In this document: positions 4,499-61,250 of the stretch, piece after piece | Position numbering within the stretch: position 1 is the first letter of the stretch | How the letters are laid out: every line of letters begins with the position of its first letter | Made by a program: the position numbers and the translations under genes | Assembly (NCBI GenBank): GCA_014904985.1 | Contig: MU129149.1 | Location: 21,741 to 82,990 of the forward strand | Direction of reading: 5' to 3' | Source of the DNA: Hydnum rufescens UP504 | Taxonomy: Eukaryota > Basidiomycota > Agaricomycetes > Cantharellales > Hydnaceae | DNA: 61,250 nt | Notes under the pieces: model-generated | The model's database searches: none | Seen by the model: only the letters and a program-made list of their open reading frames with translations | Told to the model about the DNA's origin: nothing

Positions 4499-7137
4499 TT
4501 AGAGCATATAAATGCAACCCTTGAAATATCTAGTTAGATACCGATAATTGGCTGACCAGGCTGCCGCCGACATGATAGGCAAAGTGATGTGGACTGAACG
4601 ACCTTGCCGGTCTCCGTCTTGCCAAACCTGTAAATTCATTCCCTCACCGTGCGCATACTCGATCCTCACAGAATAGGAGAATAGCCAAGGTTGGCTGAGA
4701 ATGATGTCCTTCTGCCCGATATTATCGGACATAATGAAGAAATTATGTGGGAGGGGTACTCCTCCGACCTGGATTGGAACGTCGCGACAAAGTCCAACGA
4801 GATTGACTTGGTGGCCAGAGACTCCATGAAGGATCCAGTCCTTGCCGGACGGATCCATAGGCAGCTCTAGTTTAGCTTGTGTTGACTGTACCATCATATT
4901 TAACTCACTCCCATTATCAATTAGCATGGTGCAGGCTTGCCCCATTATCATGCCTTGGATCTTTGCCGTTACCATAGCTAGGAAGGTCGGGCGGAATGAG
5001 AAGTCTGAGTCCCTTACGTTGAACACTCGGTTGTGTTCCTTTTCAAGTTGTCGCCTATAGAATTGTTCAGCCTGATCATCGGTGTCGAGTCTGCTGTCGT
5101 CCGAAGCATAATTGTTCTTGGAATCATCGGATTCGAAGGCAACTACGTTGATTTCGTGGTCCTGCGGTTTCTTAGGTGGGCGATTAATGAGTGGCTGTTT
5201 AGGTGGTCTACCAGGCTTTAGTTCAATAGGCTTAGCAGAGGAGAGTTTGGCCGGATTCTCAGGAGGAACGACCGGACTTTGATCAACTGAAGAGAAGATC
5301 GAAGGAACGTCTTTAATTTCAGCAATATGCTCTAAGCAGTTAACTGTGGCCTCAACATTGTGAGACCCGGCGGTTTCCGGTTTGACTGGAACGCGTTGCG
5401 TCTTTGTCACTACCTGGAGTCTTTTGCACAACTCAAACGACGACCCTAGAATATCACCAAGCTTGACCGTCACATCCTTGTCCATAAGGGTCTTGTATAG
5501 TGCCTCAATATCGACGTTCTCCTGGAGTTCGCTGGCAAAACGGTACGCAGGTGAGGCTCATTTCTTTCCTTGGTCAGGCTTACTCCGCACGACTACGTCC
5601 TCTAGTGCAGGATTTGTTTTAGGTCTCAGTTTCGTGATTGGAACTTCCTTATCGCCAACTACTTCCTTTTGCTTGCGAAACGAAGGTTGATCCATGGTTG
5701 CGTCCCGCATCTCCACATCCTCGTTCGGCAAAGCTGGTGTGGGTTCGGTAGTGTGTGCCTCCCTCTTCAAGATGGTGGGTACCTTTGGATTATCAACCGG
5801 TGGAGCTTGTTTAACTGGACGTTGGGGTAACTCAACGTACGCCCTATTTGGGCAGTCCGTCTTCTTTCCCTTAGGATTGTCCTTCACATATGGTTCGTTT
5901 CGCTTTGCTTCGCCATCCCCTTGCTTTCTTTCAGCCGGAAAGACTTCGTACTCGTAATTGCCAAACACGGTGAATTCCTGGTTCAGCATTTCAAAGCTCC
6001 ATAGGTGTTCCATTTCTACGTTCGAAGCATTCGCGAGCTGATCTCGAAGGATGCGCGCGACTCCTCCGTTGTCGATGTCCCCGTGAGGTAGATCGGTACC
6101 ATCAAGCTGTACAAGGCGACCCTCATTCGAGATCTTCAACACCTTCTTCGCGATAAAAGCCTTTGTCTCAGGACACTCTTTAAGTGAGTGTCCCTGTTCA
6201 CCGCACATGAAACATTTAATTGACGAGATGTTGAATTTGCCTGTGCGGCGCATGACCTTATCGGGATCGAATTGGCCTAGCGCTATGGTCAAACGTCCTA
6301 TTTTCTCCGCAAGATCGTCGATGTTTGACTTCATCGGATCGCCCTGGTCTGGGGCTTTAGTAATATCAGAAGGTTTAGTAATATTCTCTTCCTTCTTTTG
6401 CTTGTTATCAAGCTTGGACTGAAGTTTCCTGTTCTTAACCCGCCTAGTCTCGTCATCCGAGTCGTCCGTACCTGAATCGTCATCCGAGTCCATCGTGTCC
6501 GAGGACTTATCATCATCTGAGGCCACGTTCGATCCGTCGTCATCTGGAACGCGATATAGGTCTCGTTTAAGATGGAGCTTGATGGCCTGGGTGGCCTCGT
6601 TCATGGGAGGAGGATTGGTTAGATCCGTCCAGAGCTTGGAGTTCCTTAGTACATTGCCAATTTCTTCGCGAAACGACATGGGTTTGACACCCCTCCAGAA
6701 ATAGTCATACTTATCGGTTTGCGATAGAGCCTTGCGATCCTCGAGCGCTCTCGCGATAACCATGAACTCACAGATGTAATTATCGAATTTCTCAATAGAA
6801 GAAAGCTTCCTGTCCTTGCGGACGAGTTTGAGTAAATGATCTACCTTGTAATAAGGTTTCTCTTCTTCTGAAGGGTAGTAGTCCAGTAAACGGGACTTGA
6901 AAACTTCCCAATCATCATTGTAATATTCATCTAACGACTCAATAAACCTTTCGGATTTAGTATCACAGTAACGAGTAATTTGACGAATTGTTTGGGCAGG
7001 GGTAAGATGGCCGCGGTAGTGCAGAACTCATATTCTGCGAGGAAGTGTAAGATCCTTTTTCCTTTGAATCGCAGAGCGTCTCTGGAACATGGTCCAGGCA
7101 TGCGAGCAAACGTAGTAGTCGACATGTTTGTGACCAT
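4499..7137 (-). pseudogene. Stand-alone Gag-protease gene of a Ty3/gypsy-like element, broken
   Basis: The minus-strand frame starts at ATG 7137 (a Gag-like N-terminus with RFKGKR) and changes frame near 7000-7030. It then runs through a Gag core (RYCDTKSERF, DYYPSEEE, FWRGVKPMSF), an acidic linker, a CCHC zinc knuckle (CFMCGEQGHSLKEC, near 6165-6215) and a retropepsin-like domain. The active-site motif there reads LIDNGSELN, with DNG in place of the usual D-S/T-G. Two lesions are visible: the frameshift near 7010 and one in-frame TGA at 5558-5560, after which the same frame continues for 350 codons. No reverse transcriptase, RNase H or integrase follows, because the frame ends at 4499 just after the protease. 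It is either a truncated element or a member of the Gag-protease genes that occur without pol in these fungi. Confidence 0.85.
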
Positions 7138-8546: not shown

Positions 8547-10035
8547 TTATCCCTCCAACACCGGTCTGGTACAAAGGATCAAAAACCCATGCATCGGCAC
8601 TACAGGTCGTCCAGAACAAGGCCGCATGCACCATCAGTGGTACGTTCAAGACAACACCAGTGGCAGCCCTCACAACGGTCTGCTCCCTTGTGCCAATTAG
8701 TCTCCAAATGGATTATCTGTCCAATCGTGCGGTAAATCGCTGGAATAAACTTGACGAGTGCAATCCAGTAATTTGCCGCCTCCCTATGGCAAAACGGAAT
8801 GGACAAGAGGTGTCAGACCCTCTGCCCATTTCCCCACCCCATATAAAGTCGAAGAACTGGCATGCTGATGGGCCGAATGCATATAAGCTCACACTCGATG
8901 CCGCTAAACAAGCTGAGTGCACAAGATTATGGAAAATGTCACAGCATATGATCTCCGGTATGGAGAAGATTGAGATGTTCATAGATCCTCCCTGGCACTG
9001 CTCAGAATGGGATGACAATTTAAAAGGGCACATTTCCCAAGAAATACTGCCATCAACAAAGGGGAAATCCCTCAAGAAGCAATGGGCAAAGAGGCACAAG
9101 AACGAGGCGCTCACCCGCAATCAAGATCCAAGTCAACTAGCCGTATACTCAGATGGATCTATGTTCTTCAAAGATGGGGTCCGCAAAACTGGTCTAGGGG
9201 TGGCAGCATACCACCTTGGCAAGATGGTATTCGAATCCTCCGCATCACTTGGAGAACATGTCATAGTCTATGACACAGAGATGGAAGGCATTGCAGTGGC
9301 AGCCGAACTCACTCAAGACTACATCCTATCACTCCCATCCCCTGCCTCAATCAAGCACGTTAATTTTTTCACAGACAATACGGGAGCACTGTACCGAGCC
9401 TTCAGCGCAAAGCCCGGGAAAGCACAAAACTGTTCAAGATGCTTCTGTAAGGCAGTACTTGAACTGTTGGATGCTAACAAAGACCTTATTATCCTAATGG
9501 GGTGGGCACCAGGACACCTTGGTATAATAGGCAATGAACGTGCAGATGTCCTTGCTAAGAGGGTGGCAGTGAAGTAGCAGCCACCTGGAATTTCTCTCAC
9601 TGTCCTACACAGGTAGCCTTCAGAAGAAAGAACTATTGGAGCGCTGGATACATGACTGGATTACCTCAGCCCACAACCACAACTCAGCATTCCACCTTGC
9701 CGACAAGTTCAAACCAAGCCTCCACCCAACCCCCCTGTGCAGCAACCTTGGGCGAAAGACCTTTAGCTGGGTGGTCCAATGCATGACAGGACATCGCACA
9801 TATAGGGAGCTACTATGCAAAATTCATTCCGGATGAAGAAGTCAACTGCCCCTGCGGCAAGGATCTACAGACCCGCGAACACGTCCTACAATCATGCATG
9901 CTGCACGAGGGTCACTGCCACCTACTCGGAGACACTGACCAAGACTGCAACACAGCAAAACTTCTGGGAACGATGGACAGTAACGTACACCTCGCGGCCT
10001 TTATCGAGGCCTCGGGGGCTTTTTCAAAGACATAA
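8547..10035 (+). pseudogene. 5'-truncated LINE (non-LTR retrotransposon) ORF2 C-terminus with RNase H
   Basis: The plus frame begins inside the region after the reverse transcriptase (PVWYKG, VQNKAACTISG, FKTTPVAAL). It continues into a type I RNase H domain with the expected acidic residues: VYSDGS near 9150, the E of TEMEG near 9275, FTDNTGAL near 9370 and GNERADVLAK near 9530. The frame stops with TAG at 9575-9577 and resumes in another frame (ERWIHDW, GRKTFSW, CMTGHRTYREL). After a frameshift near 9800 it ends with the zinc motif CPCG..REHVLQSC and LLGTMDS..GAFSKT, stopping at 10035. The reverse transcriptase and endonuclease are absent, as expected for 5' truncation during LINE insertion. 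At least two lesions make it inactive. Confidence 0.9.
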
Positions 10036-21331: not shown

Positions 21332-21407
21332 ATCACGATAAATCGCAACACCGCGCTTTCACGCCCATACCTCTCTTCCTCTCTCCACATCCCTCTATCT
21401 CTCTTCC

Positions 21408-21761
21408 GCTCTCCACATCTCTCTATCTCTCTTCCTCTCCCCACATCTCTCTATCTCTCTTCCTCTCACCATATCTCTCCCACACATCTCGATCGCCCTG
21501 ACGTTTCTTGACTTCCTCCTCTTATTTCTTACTCTCGTCCTTTCTGTGCCCTTTTCCTTTTCCTTTTCCTTTTCCTTTTCTTCGCTCTCCACATCTCTCT
21601 ATCTCTCTTCCTCTCCCCACATCTCTCTATCTCTCTTCCTCTCACCATATCTCTCCCACACATCTCGATCGCCCTGACGTTTCTTGACTTCCTCCTCTTA
21701 TTTCTTACTCTCGTCCTTTCTGTGCCCTTTTCCTTTTCCTTTTCCTTTTCCTTTTCTTCTT
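21408..21761 (+). repeat. 177-bp direct duplication with TTTTCC tracts
   Basis: Sequence from GCTCTCCACATCTCTC at 21408 is repeated almost exactly from 21584. Each copy ends in (TTTTCC)4. It lies between the chromovirus stop and the antisense gene and is pyrimidine-rich. The minus-strand open frames here are repeat artefacts. Confidence 0.9.
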
Positions 21762-52135: not shown

Positions 52136-53433
52136 ATGTGGAAATATATTCGCAAGCTTTTTAAAGGCGACAGCGATAAGCGCTTTAGGGTCCTCATACT
52201 TGGACCGGCGAACGCAGGAAAGACCACTCTACTCGAGCGACTAACGGACAGCCCTGCCGGCGCGGCCATAGTGACCCGCAACGGAAAACGTGTAATCACT
52301 GTAGATGTTCGAACTCAGTAGAGCTGCTGGTCTAATTCATCCCTTTATCCCAGGTCAAGGAGGTCCCCAAAGGATACGATCAAGTAAGCGCCATCCTAGC
52401 AAAGGTGCACTGCGGTTGCTCGATGCTTTCACCACATCTAGCGAGGGATCCATAATATCGACGACGAAATCACTTACGCATCGGGCCCGGCATTCGTTTT
52501 CCACGACTCTGGTGGTTTCGAGGCGGGAGGGGTCGAGGAGCTCGAGGCCGTCTGGAAATTTATTCGAAAGCGCTCGTTAGCTTCGCCTTTGAAGCAGCTG
52601 CATGCGATTTGGTGCGTTCACCCATGCAGTTCACACGTCGTCTTACTGTGACTCACCAATTGCTACAGGCTCTGTATTCCAACAGATAATGACAGGCCCT
52701 TCGGATTCTTGCAATCAGGCTTTTTCTCCGAATCCACAGCATCAGGTGCGTCCCATCAGTGGCGGCATTCGACACTATCCGTTACGCACTGGTCCATATA
52801 TCCGTTCAGTGCCTGTTATTGGAATTTTCACCATGTTGGATGGAAGAAGGACGAAAGTGGAGATTGAGGTTCTAGGCCCTGCTCCCCGCCCATCCGATTT
52901 CCGCGATCGTGCCCAGGAGGTGGATCAGAAAGTAGCTGAATTTGTCAATGGACTCGAGACACAATTTCGGAATGAGCGGTACCCACCTGCTGGTTTCATC
53001 GGGGTTGGAAGTATGTATACTCTATCCAAGCAGCAATTTTGGCACTTAAATCTATGGCCTAAAGACATGCATGAAGTTAGCATGCAGAGCATAGTATTGT
53101 GTTACCGACTTCTTCTACTCACTATGGATGCTCTTCCCTATGAGACCCGGAGATCATTACTTAGGCTCACGGTTTGGAAAAGAAACCGCCGAATTCATAC
53201 CATGTCTGTTTTAAAGCGGTGAGTTTGGATGTCCAACAAATTGACGGTGGCTCATGCCTGTGTTTATCTCATAGTGTCCTTCATGCTGGAACTGAAGGTC
53301 CTGTCTCAAGCTGTATTGATGAGATGATGGTACAATTTGACTATGTTCAGGGAGCATTGTGGCTAGAACCCAACAACCTGTGCAAGATGAAGAATCAGAG
53401 TTACATGCAGACAAGGGTTTCAGGATTCTTATG
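52136..53433 (+). CDS. P-loop GTPase-family gene, 5' exons
   Basis: Exons: 52136-52291, 52354-52383, 52442-52611, 52669-52745, 52810-53010, 53095-53218 and, less certain, 53275-53433. All junctions keep frame. Exon 1 has the P-loop GPANAGKTTLL (residues about 25-35). Exon 3 has the G3 region HDSGGFEAGGVEELEAVWKF. Exon 4 reads CIPTDNDRPFGF. Exon 5 has the G4-like position IFTMLDGRRTK, where TKxD is usual, then FVNGLETQFRNERYPPAGF. Exon 6 reads DALPYETRRSLLRL..SVLKR. This is the cytosolic or membrane-attached GTPase family widespread in Agaricomycetes; its role is not established. The altered G4 motif (TMLD) may weaken guanine specificity. Exon 7 ends TTATG|GTGAGTG, directly at the first unit of the triplet array, so the natural C-terminus is either encoded in that array or lost. 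Confidence 0.85.
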
Positions 53434-56400
53434 GTGAGTGAATATATCCCTTGCACAACATTTAAGGTACTGATTGTATCATGGGGGGTATAACTGTGGC
53501 AACTGATTCTGACAATATGACACATAATTTACTCATTGGATGGTGTTGACAACATAGGAGGTATGGCTGGAGGTGTTCACTTTTGGTGCACAATCATTGG
53601 CTTACATGTCTCTTTATGACACTATCAATGTAGTTGGTCAGTCTGGATCTTGAATACATGGTCACTGACTGATATAATTTTTGCTGCCATTGGGAACACA
53701 GTATGTGAGTCCAGATCTCCCCCAATTCCATGTATAGTCATTCCCTGATACAGCTTCTGGTGGAATCCACAACACAGGGGGTGAGTTTATGTCTCTGTTA
53801 GTTGATATGAGGTGGCTGTATATCTTTTGGTGGCATGGATAACATAGCATGTGAGCATGGATCTCCCACCATTAGATCCATACTGTCACCAGCTGATATC
53901 TCCCTTGGTGACATCAACCATGTAGGAGGTAAGACTGCACCTGTCATAGTTTCATATGTGGTCACTAGCTGATAGAACATTTGGTGGCATGAACATAGGC
54001 TGTGGGTTGGATTTCCCCACCATTCAATGTGTTATGGCTGACTCATACATCTTTTCCATGGCATAAACAACATAGCTTGTATGTCCAGATGTCTTGGAAT
54101 TTGATGCATGGTCACTGACCGATAAATATTTTATTGACATTCACACTGTAGTATGTAAGTGTGGATTCAGCATGAGATCCATGGTTGATACATCATTATG
54201 TGCAATGGATAAAATAGGAGGTCAGTCCATATCTCCCAGCTTTCATTGGTGATTGTTGGTGAATGCATTATTTGGTGACATGGATAATGTAGTATGTAAG
54301 TAGGAATTTCCTATAAGTTAGCACCTGGTCACTGGTTGATCCATCATCTGATGGCATGCACAATGTAGAAAGTAAGCTTGGATCTCTTACAATTAGATGT
54401 GTTTGGGCAGGCTGATATCTCTTTGTCTGTCATGGACAATGCAGGGAGTAAGTTCAGATCTCACAATCTGATGCATGGGTCCTCATTGGTACATTATTTG
54501 GCATTGACACCACAGCCTGTAAGTTTGGATATCTCTGAATTCGTTGAGTGTGGTCACCTGGCTAATACATTTTTGGATAACACTGATAATATAGGAGGTA
54601 AGTCTGGATCTCCTCTGCCTTGATGCACTATCACTGGCTGACACATCACTGGATGACATCAATAACCAAGAATGTGGGCTGTCTTTCAATTTTGTGCTTG
54701 ATCATTGGCTGATCCATCTTCTGGTGGCACTGACAACATAGAAGGTAAATCTGAATTTCTGACTATTCAATCTATTGTTGTTGGCTAATGTATCTTTTGG
54801 TGATGTTGACAATGGAGGCTGTATGTTTGGTTCTTTTCCAATGAAATGTACAGGTGCAGACTGATATTTCTTGGTCTGAATGGACAATGCAGGGAGTAGG
54901 GCTGGATCTCACAATTTAATGCATGGTCACTCTCTGATACATTGTTTGTTCCCATTGACAATGTAGCATGTAAGTTCAGATCTCTGCTAATGAATCACTG
55001 GCCAAAATATTCTTTGGTGACATTGATAATGTAGCATGTAGGTTCTGCTGCCACTTTGATGCACAATCACTGGCTGATACATTCTGGGTGAACTTGACAA
55101 TATAGGAGGTGAGCCTGGCTCACTTTTGACTCAGTGTGTGGTGACTTGCTGATCTCACCAATGGCATCAACAATGTAGCTGGTGGGCCCAGGAATTCTCA
55201 CAATTTGATGCAGGATTGCTGCCTGATTCATCATCTGGTTGCATTGCCAATGTAGGAAGTGAGTGACCCCCCCCCCCACCACTTTATGTATAGGTGTTGG
55301 CTGATACATTGCCTGGTGGTATCACAAATGTAGGTTGTATGTTGAGATCTCTTGCAATTGAATGTGAGGTCATTGACTGATACACTGTTTGGTGGCATGG
55401 ACAATGTAAGATGGTGAGGTTGTATCTACCACTATTCATTGAGTGGCCCTCAGTTGTTATACTTGTGTGGCCTTAACACCATAGTATGTAAGTCCACATC
55501 TCAGTCTGATTCATGCATGGGGTCTGCCTGATTCAGTGGTTGGTGGCTTCTGCAAACAAGAGGGTAGGTCTGGATACTTGAATTCCATATGTTGCTGTGA
55601 GCTGATGTATCATTTCATGGTTTTGATAACACAGAGGGTAAGATGGGATCCCTGAGAATTTGTGGCAAGGTGCTGATTGGTTGGTCAACCTGAACACTGT
55701 AGGATGTAAGTGCATATCACCCACCTGGTCATGAGTTGATACATCTTTGGGTGGCATTGAAAATGTAGGAAGTAAGTGTCTGAATGTCTGAGAATTTGAC
55801 ACATTATCCCTTGCTGATTCATCATTTGGTGGCATCAACAACATAGATTGTAAGTGTGGATGTCATAGAATTGAATGTATTATCCCTTGCTGACTCATCA
55901 TTTGATGCCATTGACCACATAGCGAGTAAGTATGGATGTCATAGAATTCAATGAATTGTCCCTTGCTGATTCATCATTTGGTGCCATTGACCACATAGCA
56001 AGTAAGTGTGGATGTCATAGAATTCAATGGATTGTCCCATGCTGATTCATCACTTGGTGCCATTGACCACATAGGGTGTAAGTGTGGATGTCATAGAATT
56101 CAATGAATTGTCCCTTGCTGATTCATCATTTGGTGCCATTCACCACATAGACTGTAAGTGTGGATGTCATAGAATTCAATGGATTGTCCCTTGCTGATTC
56201 ATCATTTGGTGCCATTGACCACATAGCATGTAAGTGTGGATGTGATAGAATTCAATGGATTGTCCCTTGCTGATTCATCATTTGGTGCCATTGACCACAT
56301 AGTATGTAAGTATGGGTGTGATAGAATTCAATGGATTGTCCCTTGCTGATTCATTTGGTGCCATTGACCACATAGGAAGTAAGTGTGGATGTCATAGAAT

Positions 56401-57890
56401 TCAATGGATTTTCCCTTGCTGATTTATCATTTGGTGCCATTGACCACATAGGAAGTGAGTGTGGATGTCATAGAATTCAATGGATTTTCCCTTTCTGATT
56501 TATCATTTGGTGCCATTGACCACATAGGGTGTAAGTGTGGATGTCATAGAATTCAATGGATTGTCCCATGCTGATTCATCATTTGGTGCCATTCACCACA
56601 TAGACTGTAAGTGTGGATGTGATAGAATTCAATGGATTGTCCCTTGCTGATTCATCATTTGGTGCCATTGACCACATAGCGTGTAAGTGTGGATGTCATA
56701 GAGTTCAATGGATTGTCCCTTGCTGATTCATCATTTGGTGCCATTGACCACATAGCTTGTAAGTGTGGATGTCATAGAGTTCAATGGATTGTCCCTTGCT
56801 AATTCATCATTTGGTGCCATTGACCACATAGCTTGTAAGTGTGGATGTGATAGAATCCAATGGATTGTCCCTTGCTAATTCATCATTTGGTGCCATTGAC
56901 CACATAGCATGTAAGTGTGGATGTGATAGAATTCAATGGACTGTCCCTTGCTGATTCATCATTTGGTGCCATTAACCACATAGGTTGTAAGTGTGGATGT
57001 GATAGAATTCAATGGATTGTCCCTTGCTGATTCATCATTGGGTGCCATTGACCACATAGCAAGTAAGTGTGGACATCATAGAATTCAATGGATTGTCCCT
57101 TGCTGATTCATCATTGGGTGCCATTGACCACATAGGCTGTAAGTGTGGACATCATAGAATTCAATGGATTGTCCCTTACTGATTCATCATTTGGTGCCAT
57201 TGACCACATAGCAAGTAAGTGTGGATGTCATAGAATTCAATGGATTGTCCCTTGCTGATTCATCATTTGGTGCCATTGACCACATAGGCTGTAAGTGTGG
57301 ATGTCACAGAATTCCATGGATTTCCCCTTGTTGATTCATCATTGGTGCCATTGACCACATAGCATGTAAGTGTGGATGTCATAGAATTCAATGGATTGTT
57401 CCTTACTGATTCATCTTTTGGTGATATTGACAACACAGGTTGTAAGTCCAGATCTCTTAGAATTTGATGCATCTTCTCCCCCAATTCATCTTTTCATTTC
57501 ATTGACAATGTAGCAAGTGAGTCTGAATGTCTTGGAATTCAATACATCATCCCTTGCTGATTTCCTTTTTTCATGATAATGCAGCCTGTAAGTCCAGATG
57601 TCTCAGAATTCTATTCACCCTGACTTGATCATGTCCCACTTGGTGGTTTTGTCCTGTAGGAGGTCAGTCCACATCTCCAGCTCTTGGATTTCTGATCTCT
57701 GGACAATCTCTTATTTCACTACATCTACAATATAGGATGTATGTCCCCCTCTTACTTTTCTGTGTATGGTCCTGCTCATACACATCTCACTGACATTCAC
57801 AATGTTAGCTGGTGAGTTCATAAATTTATACAATGGGATAATATCCTATTTTTTGGCTCCACTCCTTATACTTGGATTCATTACAGGATA
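53434..57890 (+). repeat. Array of 58 intron-like units separated by exactly three bases
   Basis: Each unit starts with a donor (mostly GTAAGT, also GTGAGT, GTATGT, GTCAGT), has a CTGAT, CTGAC or CTAAT branch-like site 25-30 bases before its end, and ends in ACATAG, AATGTAG or CACAG. Then come three bases and the next donor. Donor starts include 53561, 53637, 53705, 53781, 53851, 53929, 54002, 54079, 54155, 54221, 54296, 54372, 54448, 54519, 54598, 54674, 54745, 54821, 54896, 54970, 55038, 55109, 55182, 55259, 55337, 55414, 55488, 55564, 55638, 55706, 55772, 55850, then every 76 bases from 55926 (one 73) to 57291, then 57366, 57442, 57517, 57588, 57663, 57739, 57812. The triplet is the three bases before each position. 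A last acceptor at 57886 is followed by six bases, GATAAT, and GTAAGT. Four acceptors read AAG or GAG. The left units are diverged; the 55.9-57.3 kb core is nearly identical except for the triplets. None of the 58 triplets is a stop. Confidence 0.9.
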
Positions 57891-58041
57891 ATGTAAGTTA
57901 CATCTAATGTGCCAAAGCCAAATGATTCTGTGTAATTGTGGTCCCATCATTGCTCCCCTGTTATCTGGTAAATATTGTCAAGCCTCACCTCCATCCTTGT
58001 CTTTATCTCCCCCAAATTTTATTAGGTGCTCAAATAATCAG

Positions 58042-58098
58042 GCAGTGAAGGCCTGTGTGCCCTTCCTCAAACTATTGGTTGGTTTAGGTTTTCATTGA
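58042..58098 (+). other. Candidate terminal exon after the triplet array
   Basis: An acceptor AATAATCAG ends at 58041, and the following frame reads AVKACVPFLKLLVGLGFH and stops with TGA at 58098. If the triplets are read as codons and GATAAT as two more, this exon follows in frame (phase 0). No other support exists; an alternative acceptor TTTATTAG lies at about 58025. Confidence 0.3.
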
Positions 58099-59045
58099 TT
58101 TCCCCCTCCAGGATGTCTAAGCAACCATTCCAGCATCACCTGCCTATTCCATCACACCCAAATCTTCAATATCTGGCATTTATTTGTTGTCAGGGTTGTG
58201 ACTAATTCTAATTGTGGAAGAGATTGCTGATCTTGGTTTGTCAACCCAGTGGTCATCCTTTGGATTCGGAGGGGGAGGAATGCTGATTCACCTGATGCAC
58301 CTGAAATAGAGCACACCACTAACTTGGTCCAGGCTCAAATCAGGAGTGACTTTGTGGATCATAGAGATTTTCAAGCACTAGACTCATATGTTACTGCAGA
58401 CAGACTGGCAAGGATCATTGATGACTACACACCAATGTAATGTGTGTAGAATACATGTATCAAGTCAAGAGATATCCTCCAATGTCATCAGTTGTCAATC
58501 CTTATCTCTGATGGGCTGATCCACTCAGAGGTGGAGGTCAGTCTCAATGGATCACATGCAATGCCCATGCACCATGGACCCACAATCTCTGTACCTTGGC
58601 AGGACCTATATCGACATATACACCAAAGGACTTCTTCCAGTCCCACTATTGGAAGTAATCAAGATGCAGTACATTGTTTTAAACTTTTTCAATTTTCAGG
58701 GGGTGTGCCAATTTATCTTGGAAATTTAATGACTGAGAGCAAGAGGGAAAGCTATCCTAAAATTCCTACATTGATGCAATGGTGTGACTTGTATTTTCTT
58801 ACACCATATTCACCCTGGATTCCATTGAGGCCATGTCTGTGATCAAGAGTTTGAGTCATTGTGGAAGTCCAACCATGGTCATGAGGCCCAACTGTACATA
58901 GGGTTGTTTAAACAACATCCACTTGTCAAGCCATCCCAGTAGTGGATTGATCTCAACAATCACACCCTTTGGAAATAATCTCATAGCACAGTGAGGACAT
59001 TGGATCTTCCTCATTGCACTCAGTTTCTGTCACACATTCAAACAC
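58099..59045. other. CpG-free stretch, one short open frame
   Basis: The plus frame 58249-58440 reads DSPDAPEIEHTTNLVQAQI and DYVTADRLARIIDDYTPM-like sequence and ends with TAA. An acceptor CAACCCAG precedes it, so it may be a last exon, but I recognise no family. The rest holds no gene that I can support. Confidence 0.3.
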
Positions 59046-59215
59046 CTAATGCACCCTCAAAAAGGTACCTCTTAGGTGGGTTCTGGTTGCATTGGGATAT
59101 GACCTAAGAGGTGGTTTTTATATAGGCACATCTAAGCAGTGTCTAAAGGTGTTCAGAAGATGAAAATTTTTTAAGTTCCTATAATAGGTGTGCCTATCTG
59201 TGCCCACTGCAGGTG
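59046..59215 (+). repeat. Repeat with ACCTCTTAGGT inverted pair, second copy
   Basis: Matches the minus strand of 34130-34320. Here it directly precedes the 1.3-kb repeat. Confidence 0.65.
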
Positions 59216-59218
59216 CTG

Positions 59219-60540
59219 CTATAGAAGAAGGGTTGGGAGCTCTGATGACTGTCAAATCAAGATCTGGTTCAGCCAGTGTGTAGATGGGAGACTGTATTTC
59301 TGTTGTTATTTGTTGAGTTGGTTCACTTCAATGGTTGATCACTCTCTGCAAGATGTGTATGGTGTTCAGTGGAGAATAGGATGTGATATGGACCCCCTGT
59401 AGTCAATGATATATTGTCTGGGATGCCTGTAGAAAGGCTTATATGTTGTTCATGTTGTGTTGGCTTATTTACTGATATTTGTGTGTTCTTGTTTACATCC
59501 TCCTGGTCAAAATGTGGATATCTGTGGATTCTAGACTGGTGAGTGCTTGGTTAGTCTTGTTAGTATGTTTCTTTCCTTCTTTCTTCAGAACCTGACTCAT
59601 ATTTTGTTATGCTTACTTTTCCTTGGATGTCCAGCAACTCTAACCTTAGGTCCTGCAACTATCCTTGGCTTTAGTGATTTGTGTAGAGGGCTTCCAGTGG
59701 CTTTGTGTCAACAACCTTGAAGATGACTTAGCTCCAGATGGCTTTAGATAGACTGTTCTTCAGAGGTAAGCAGAAAAGTTGACAGTGGTTGATAGTGATG
59801 ATTTCCAGAGTGAGGAGATTATGGGGGGATACAAGAAAATCTACCAGCTTTTATACCTTTCTGAAGGTGGCTGTGTTTAAAGAAAATGACTGCCTCATAG
59901 GTGAGTCATATGTGAGTCATTCATAAAGTGGTTGCCAGATGGGCAAGTCATTCATAAGTGGTTGCAAAGTAGGTGAGTCATTCATAAAGAGAACAAAAGA
60001 AATCATAGGAGTGGTGATGTCACCAATTTGCTGAGCATGTGGAGTGATAGGAGCATGAGGTCACTGATCTTGTGGAGCATCCTGGGAAGTGAAATTAGAG
60101 GATATCTCTGGGTTTTGGAGATTAATATGAGCATAGTCCAATGGTTAAGGTGTTTTTGTTATTGGTTGATAATGGGAACAAGTGCATGGGGTGGGATTTG
60201 ATGCAGAGACAGAAGTTTTGATCCATTCTTGGCATTCTCAGTACCATTTGATGCCTATTTTTAACAGCTTTCTGGGTGTGGTAATTCTGAGTAGATCCAG
60301 TGTGAACTGATGGAGAAATTTGCAAAATACTGGTGGGTGTTGGTTTTGATAGTAATATTGATCTGGAGAGTGCAGTTTTGATCTGTTCTTGGTATGCTCA
60401 GTACCATTCAATGCAGACTTTCAACAGCTTTCTGGGAGTGGTGGTTCTGAGCAGATTTGATGTGAACGGATGGAGAAATTTGCTAAATACTGGAAAATTT
60501 GGATTTGGATAGTAAAACCTGGAGAGTGCAGTTTTGGTCC
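59219..60540 (+). repeat. 1.3-kb repeat, CpG-depleted copy
   Basis: Collinear with 11996-13276. Aligned CpG sites have become TpG or CpA, for example TTCGATGG to TTCAATGG, TATTTCGTTATGC to TATTTTGTTATGC, and TTTACGTC to TTTACATC. It ends in the 160-bp satellite, as the other copy does. Short words GTGAGTCATTCATAAAG repeat at 59890-59990. Confidence 0.8.
60241..60510 (+). repeat. 160-bp satellite, 1.7 monomers, CpG-depleted
   Basis: Monomers start at 60241 (GTACCATTTGATGCC) and 60401 (GTACCATTCAATGCAG), exactly 160 bases apart. Both contain AACAGCTTTCTGGG and GGAGAAATTTGC. CpG positions of the 7.9-kb and 13.1-kb copies are TpG or CpA here. Confidence 0.85.
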
Positions 60541-61250
60541 ATTGTGGAAGGAATAACTGTCTAGTATCTGAAAATGCAAGTTTGGAAGTGCTCTGACCTC
60601 AGACCTTGATCAATGATCTGTTGGAGTGTTTAGGACAACCTTATTTTGCTACTGCCCAAAGATATCAAGGAAACTCAGTTGAAATGACTCCATTCAACAA
60701 ACAAAATAAAAAGTTTTCTACATGTTAAAAAAATGCTTATGTAACCAAGATTTGTAATCAAAAACCTGGACTCTAAAAGTATGACTAAGCAATTTGTATG
60801 ACTAAGCAAAAGATATGACTCAGCATGATTTAGTCATCCAAATGTCCCACAACTGCACCAAACATCACACAGACTTTGATGCAGAAAAGTACACAGACAT
60901 CCAAAAATGCATATAAGGAATCAAGTTTTGTAGTTTTAGGTAGCTTTTAGATAAGACTCCCCTTGAAATAAAGTAGTTACAGACAAGAAATTCAAGTGGC
61001 CCAGTGACTGAAAGGCATACTCAGACCAACAATGAGAAGTTGTAGATAGTTGTAGGACCCTCAGTGTAGGTGTTGCTAGATGTCTAAGCCCTGAATCATA
61101 TGATAATAAGTTCAAGCCCATAAAAGTTTCAAATCAGAAATAGTGTCAGGGCCATGCTGCAACGAGGGCACCAAACAAATGTAAACACAAATAATTCCGG
61201 CTAAGTCCGGTGTAAGTCTGGCTAAGTCTGCAAGAATCCGGGCAAGAATG
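60541..61250. other. No gene recognised; CpG-poor tail of the window
   Basis: AT-rich with short repeats of ATGACTAAGC at 60779-60830 and GGCTAAGTCCGG-type words at 61195-61240. CpG returns only in the last 100 bases, which may mark a further repeat starting at the window edge. Confidence 0.4.

Follow-up and report, generated by a model that had tools for sequence, protein, structure and literature searches.

A stretch of 61,250 nucleotides from contig MU129149.1 of the fungus Hydnum rufescens UP504 (here called the window; positions count from its first letter) carries on its forward strand a GTPase gene that runs directly into an array of 58 three-base units, each set between intron-like repeats. 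The array is probably the 3' end of this Hydnum-type GTPase gene, with the tail of the protein predicted to be written one codon per exon. The initial annotation, made from the letters of the DNA, had suggested either some sixty exons of 3 nt or a succession of recursive splice sites. This suggestion is supported by the phase in which the gene meets the array and by the first tail residues, which are found joined in proteins of relatives.

The array was delimited by scanning for every AG-NNN-GT within 53,400-58,500. There are 72 occurrences, and 58 of these form one chain, with the AG at 53,556 to 57,807 and the last triplet ending at 57,811. The chain advances in steps of 66-79 bases, and the gap between acceptor and donor is always 3 bases, at 58 of 58 junctions, just as the initial annotation had described it. 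The 58 single-codon units (GAG TTG TAT GGG CAT GAG GCT CTT TAT GAG TAT AAA ... CTG; 53,558-57,811, forward strand) are separated by 57 introns of 63-76 nt, of which 28 are exactly 73 nt. Together with the first intron (53,434-53,557, 124 nt, with the donor GTGAGT right after ATG) and the one after triplet 58 (57,812-57,886, 75 nt) the introns number 59. The exon that follows has six bases, GATAAT (Asp-Asn; 57,887-57,892), so here the three-base rule stops and a multiple-of-three rule is kept; GTAAGT comes next, and unspliced the sequence would read DNVSYI and then an in-frame stop. At exon length 3 the longest chain is these 58 units, as compared to 4 for the best chain upstream of 53,400, 4 on the minus strand and a maximum of 5 in 500 first-order Markov simulations of the region. 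Exon lengths of 7, 1 and 9 gave chains of 29 and 14, all within the same array, which we read as inner matches to GTAAGT. The array has an old, diverged part (53,561-55,768), whose 30 introns have a mean identity of 57%, and a young, homogeneous part (55,850-57,438) with 21 near-identical introns, after triplets 32-52, around dissimilar codons. Tandem Repeats Finder reports a tandem repeat of period 76 at 55,803-57,447.

The introns look like ordinary ones. GT and AG bound all 59 of them, although 57 do so by definition, the chain being defined through AG and GT, so that the constancy of these two dinucleotides is built in. The acceptor is TAG or CAG in 55 of 59 introns, the donor is GTRAGT in 38 of 59 (12 of 31 in the old part), and a CTRAY branch site is present in 50 of 59, as compared to a mean of 9 and a maximum of 18 when the interiors were shuffled. 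Counting any YTRAY site, which 54 introns have, its distance from the intron end is 29 nt in 35; the branch site at a normal distance, part of the initial annotation, is thus confirmed. With GT donor, branch site, AG acceptor and ordinary spacing, the array introns agree with the U2 type. If a microexon is taken as at most 30 nt between splice sites with the frame kept, the 58 three-base units, which stay in phase 0 and hold no stop, would count as microexons. No unit is missing from the chain, though the flanks of the old junctions (n=30) mismatch by 0.55 on average. About 6.7 indels would be expected in the triplets of the old half, a figure taken from alignment gap counts and to be used as a rough guide only. 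If retained, 31 of the 59 introns would bring in an in-frame stop; shuffles gave 45, and this deficit was dropped as a signal because the near-identical introns count as one. A profile of the array unit, run over the window, found no clear copy outside the array (best expect value E = 0.1). The weak likeness at that value lies at 53,219-53,245, the start of an ordinary intron of the GTPase gene (GTGAGTTTGGATGTC), which is a possible source of the array introns.

The GTPase gene upstream has eight ordinary exons on the forward strand (52,136-53,433), namely 52,136-52,291, 52,354-52,383, 52,442-52,611, 52,669-52,745, 52,810-53,010, 53,065-53,218, 53,275-53,297 and 53,351-53,433. They were joined by way of the H. 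rufescens paralogs P0001 and P0002, and give 298 codons that end in KGFRILM at phase 0. The closest relatives of the encoded protein are G-domain proteins of H. rufescens UP504 (Cantharellales), which account for 29 of the 120 proteins listed among 271 matches, and identity to P0001 is 93% over 298 residues. Pfam found only GTPase-type families in the spliced protein, with Arf (PF00025) at 22.6 bits barely above its cut-off of 22.3, and the P-loop GPANAGKT is present. When the last GTPase intron (53,298-53,350) is joined over as in P0001, FRILM ends at a codon boundary, and the donor at 53,434 is therefore in phase 0. The array begins, as had been noted at the outset, directly at the donor of the last clear exon of the gene. 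In this phase the 58 triplets read without a stop as ELYGHEALYEYKGPENKAGHHELEVMYRRDEIRQGTHYEEGTRLLHVQAQAHVQPEDL, followed by the six-base exon (DN). A phase-2 reading, which results if the intron at 53,298-53,350 is ignored, was rejected; its peptide scores 14-20 against the tails of transcript-like proteins, and the phase-0 peptide scores 57-65. No triplet has C as its third base (0 of 58), whereas 78 of the 298 GTPase codons do (P = 2e-8), which would be expected if this base also acts as position -1 of a donor.

Strong evidence comes from proteins of relatives. We scanned 124 proteins, the 120 listed of the 271 matches and four from a further search, for residues past the last GTPase exon, that is, beyond F[RKW]ILM. 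Seventeen extend past this point: nine NCBI models of H. rufescens and eight proteins on short JGI contigs of 931-1641 nt. In seven of the eight short-contig proteins FRILM is followed by ELYG, the first four residues encoded by the triplets. The ordinary GTPase introns look removed: between two and six of their positions are crossed without a gap in all of the eight but P0124, which covers no such position, and at position 7 a small gap is seen in P0023 and P0030. Because of this the short contigs look like spliced RNA.

The ELYG proteins differ in how far the codons are joined. P0030 has the tail ELYGLEDLYEYK... (in full ELYGLEDLYEYKTPQAHNLENENEEQHQLETVY), with 33 codons and then VSPDPY, on a contig of 936 nt, and P0045 and P0121 (1186 and 931 nt) share ELYGCENDYEYK... 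(in full ELYGCENDYEYKASDNLDHEKAEHDALEDSRYHID), 35 codons followed by the end of the protein. P0122 (1456 nt) joins the 11 codons of ELYGCENDYEY before an intron-like VGWGYLW..., P0123 (1641 nt) the nine of ELYGCEKYY before VSVDSI, and P0034 and P0124 (1543 and 1045 nt) the four of ELYG before VSLxLxVNVRLL.... The eighth, P0023, reads into an intron at once, with no codon joined. Compared without gaps to window codons 1-12 (ELYGHEALYEYK), P0030 is identical at 10 of 12 residues, P0045 at 9 of 12, P0122 at 8 of 11 and P0123 at 6 of 9; of 100,000 shuffles 0, 0, 0 and 1, respectively, did as well. Over the longer stretches P0030 agrees at 13 of 33 residues, which none of 100,000 shuffles reached, and P0045 at 10 of 35, which 12 of 100,000 reached. 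Local alignment of the whole tails against shuffled window peptides was less clear, with 65 as compared to a shuffled maximum of 54, and 57 to 46. The start of the tail is alike among the relatives (ELYG.E..YEYK) and the remainder is not, and a protein search with the tail only had P0121, P0045 and P0122 as its only matches. P0122 and P0045 are identical over codons 1-11, after which P0122 enters an intron and P0045 continues, the pattern that would be seen in partly and fully spliced RNA from near-identical genes. The small size of contigs of 931-1186 nt, into which 33-35 introns would not fit, was considered as further support and dropped, because the argument presumes that those introns exist in the relatives.

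It was also possible to ask which intron the proteins enter when the codons end. In four of the seven ELYG proteins joining ends after 4, 4, 9 and 11 codons, and the residues that follow best match window introns 4, 4, 9 and 11 out of 59. The scores for intron 4 are 48 for P0034 (next best 28) and 46 for P0124 (next best 27), these two counting once because they are alike. Intron 11 scores 41 with P0122, as compared to 35 for the next best, and intron 9 scores 22 with P0123 as compared to 20, on six residues only. Three separate agreements between codon number and intron number, among 59 introns, are unlikely to be chance. The predicted structure of P0030 has a mean predicted local distance difference test (pLDDT) score of 68.5, with tail residues 192-219 below 50.

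The same proteins bear on a different explanation, in which the triplets are spliced in only occasionally, the single-codon exons being mostly splicing noise, and the array is normally removed whole, as a single long intron, or else the protein stops within the first intron that is retained. ELYG is absent from all nine NCBI models of H. rufescens that pass the last GTPase exon, and in six of the eight JGI proteins the final residues come from an intron still in place, with the ordinary introns removed in the five of the six that cover them. Such an explanation would have difficulty with the codons themselves, which in seven of the eight transcript-like proteins are present from number 1 with none visibly skipped. 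It would also have to account for two proteins in which 35 codons are joined and the last residue is the same, and for the likeness of codons 1-12 between paralogs. We regard it as improbable.

The nine H. rufescens models show what takes the place of the codons there. Five (P0002-P0005 and P0014) run on into first-intron sequence; the other four (P0001, P0013, P0016 and P0036) carry pieces that resemble array introns, both judged partly by eye. In the read-through of the first intron P0014 differs by eye from the other models as if frame-shifted, which suggests that this read-through (P0002, P0003, P0014) is non-coding. We also observed by eye, in P0013 and P0016, codons 7-9 (NDY) or 8-9 (DY) lying contiguous ahead of a donor like that of intron 9. 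This suggests that some paralogs may hold these codons in one exon of 9 or 6 bases, and introns may therefore come and go at these codon boundaries.

Another explanation is that the array is a non-coding tandem repeat whose unit happens to hold AG-NNN-GT. The initial annotation had named the same spacing in unrelated tandem repeats as a finding that would speak against the array, and such repeats do exist. The pattern is matched by 43 stretches in bacterial genomes, six of which, cyanobacterial loci (L003, L004, L005, L022, L027 and L036), share one repeat with TAGGGAGTAAGT in the copies compared. The resemblance is superficial. In the copies compared the triplet is always GGA, whereas no part of the young units here varies more than the triplet, and the first codons are seen in the relatives' proteins. 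This leaves the non-coding repeat with hardly any probability. An array like clustered regularly interspaced short palindromic repeats (CRISPR), which is what we take the cyanobacterial GGA repeats to be, was rejected as unrelated on the copies from these six loci; also rejected were tRNA-like units, to which the period of 76 nt and the variable triplet might have pointed; ARAGORN found none in the window. Viral contigs had no match to the chain pattern, to a specific intron pattern or to P0001.

If the triplets are exons, the way in which they are joined has to be considered. An exon of 3 nt is too small to hold the complexes of the 3' and the 5' splice site at the same time, given the size of the spliceosome, and since there is no room for both we propose that splicing is sequential. 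Intron 1 would be removed and its codon joined to the GTPase exon, where it would supply exon positions -3 to -1 of the donor that follows. The next intron would then leave in the same way, with one codon added per round and the donor regenerated each time. Skipping of a unit would keep the frame, because each unit is three bases, and a retained intron would usually end or shift it. The array itself may have grown by tandem duplication of a unit made up of an intron and a codon, which would account for its fixed spacing and phase. Selection would then preserve splice sites, exon length and, in codons 1-12 at least, the encoded residues as well.

The unbroken prefixes of 4, 4, 9, 11 and 33 codons that precede the first retained intron are consistent with stepwise removal, with the direction deduced rather than seen. 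A possible alternative, against which we lean slightly, is that the introns are removed in no fixed order and not by a ratchet from 5' to 3'. The reading frames reveal the first retained intron only, and in potato invertase it is the intron downstream of a 9-nt exon that is removed first, according to the part available of one study (PMC4674806); it is the unbroken prefixes that speak for an order.

Several observations weigh against a gene that ends in single-codon exons, or limit how far along the array it can be followed. Beyond codon 12 the agreement with the window is low, 3 of 21 residues for P0030 and 1 of 23 for P0045. Since the relatives disagree there, and their introns are evidenced only after codons 4, 9, 11 and perhaps 33, exon status past codon 12 rests on the window, and that codons 13-58 behave as codons 1-12 do is our extrapolation from its sequence. 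Two of the six retained-intron peptides, both short (P0030 after 33 codons and P0023 after none), do not match best to the intron of the same number. That the JGI contigs are RNA copies is likewise something we infer, and other JGI and ENA proteins of the family (P0031, P0032, P0037 and P0038) are gapped at the ordinary intron positions, so unspliced sequence is also present in the database. The absence of ELYG from the nine NCBI models belongs here too. The lack of stops is weak as proof of coding; it is also found in 15% of column shuffles, 2.8% being expected from base composition, and the phase-2 reading of the triplets is likewise free of stops. Nor do the prefixes prove an order from 5' to 3', because any reading frame will stop close to the first intron that is retained. 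Finally, the window GTPase has FTMLD (at about 52,830-52,841) where the paralogs carry FTKLD, the lysine of which we take to be a guanine contact, and this copy may therefore be altered, decaying or losing its function.

The young part of the array adds a separate question. The mean mismatch between its units is 0.61 in the triplet as compared to 0.08 in the flanks; the columns adjoining the triplet have zero mismatch over 20 young junctions, and the triplet columns have 0.44-0.73. Placed on a tree of the 21 introns, the triplet sites would have gone through 8.3-8.7 changes per site, as compared to 0.59 per intron site. Triplet distance and flank distance are not linked (Mantel r -0.04 over the 20 junctions, 7066 of 10000 permutations being as high; r 0.10 and 1157 of 10000 without two length-shifted junctions). 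Junction pairs with at most 2 differences in 80 flank positions have triplets that differ at 54% of sites (26 pairs among 18 junctions). Some blocks (GGT-ACT, CAA-GCT) appear by eye to have been duplicated together with their codons.

An explanation to this can be that introns were homogenised around old, selected codons, that introns were copied in with exact boundaries, or that the codons diversified very fast. In the last case the codons would have been changed by strong diversifying selection after a recent duplication of intron plus codon, instead of being old codons between homogenised introns. The many changes per triplet site on the tree speak for it. The missing link between triplet and flank distance does not, and a 54% difference in the triplets at so few flank differences is an extreme rate to ask of selection; we hold such diversification to be rather unlikely. 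The most far-reaching version, a gene architecture in its own right, combines a tail of 58 one-codon exons, made by a ratchet of 59 steps, with introns whose copying or homogenisation was exact to the base at the boundaries and left the codons in place, as by reverse splicing between codons. This combination we put forward only tentatively, as unlikely to hold in full.

Elsewhere in the window, the low-GC stretch 3' of the array (57,893-61,250) has tandem repeats at 59,915-59,989 and 60,214-60,543. Open reading frames at 4,499-6,763 (minus strand) and 8,660-9,577 (plus strand) resemble by eye the gag/protease of long terminal repeat retroelements, with a zinc knuckle CMCGEQGHSLKEC, and RNase H-like pieces. 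At 21,402-21,759 a CT-rich unit of 176 bases is present in two copies with 99% identity.

A tail of single-codon exons, if real, would set up to 59 similar splicing problems in a single transcript, like the rungs of a ladder, and the stages at 4, 9, 11 and 33 steps are likely natural intermediates. The debate on exon size limits, on exon versus intron definition and on splicing order usually has one or two tiny exons to go on. The young block would be a direct test of how introns multiply; in it the introns are near-identical and the codons that they surround are unrelated, the opposite of how genes normally evolve. The tail would also imply that gene prediction misses such structures, as in the nine H. 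rufescens models that reach this point.

In the literature searched, on microexon runs, 3-nt exons and recursive splicing, we found no description of arrays of single-codon exons; the search on microexon runs gave RPS24 only, as far as the available text goes, and that on the H. rufescens genome and introns gave nothing on the array. Functional microexons are stated not to have been described in filamentous fungi in the accessible part of a 2024 paper (PMC11121469), and the term microexon is used in a 2005 paper on Phanerochaete P450 genes, in the excerpt available (PMC1184071). Single tiny exons are on record in the portions available of three further papers: one 3-nt exon in Drosophila hth (PMC7392893), two in the fungal lipS gene of Dactylellina (PMC5639578), and a 1-nt exon in Arabidopsis APC11, for which successive removal of the flanking introns was proposed (PMC4674806). 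As described there, these genes have one or two tiny exons each and not 58 in a row.

Two animal systems have long runs of short exons; what follows on them is taken from the sections available. In the micro-exon genes of schistosomes very short exons are likewise numerous, and most have a length divisible by three (PMC10526429). They have 10-20 short exons, mostly of 15 bp with a minimum of 6 bp (3-81 in the abstract), introns of up to about 5 kb and a secreted product (PMC10526429), and are by this description set apart from 58 exons all of 3 nt, tandem introns of 63-76 nt and the tail of a GTPase. The bicycle and megacycle genes of aphids resemble the array in their long rows of small internal exons of the same phase, with more than 100 microexons in megacycle (PMC9168663). 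Bicycle exons are mostly in phase 2, and a megacycle protein has about 2000 residues from more than 100 exons, so that the mean exon is longer than one codon (PMC9168663). Here all exons have 3 nt and phase 0, and they alternate with introns that form a tandem repeat; by description this sets the array apart from these genes as well.

The proposed ratchet resembles recursive splicing, in that a junction regenerates the donor for the next round. Ratchet points, as presented in the available part of one paper, are a juxtaposed acceptor and donor that leave no exon (PMC8605326); in the array AG does not stand directly before GT at any of the 58 junctions, three bases lie between, and one codon would be left per round. 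The tandem dual-specific splice sites of the polyubiquitin gene UBC also recur with a repeat, and the number of units in the products varies (PMC10809524). There, to judge from the text available, what repeats is a ubiquitin monomer, and a single AGGT acts as donor and acceptor alike, whereas here the unit is an intron plus one codon, with donor and acceptor separate. Introner-like elements in fungi are likewise introns that have multiplied within one genome, according to the portion available (PMC4457414). Near-identical copies in many unrelated genes of one genome would be expected of such elements; the copies seen here lie in tandem in one gene. The array would be a longer run of one-codon exons than any that we found described, and it seems best filed with the microexon genes.

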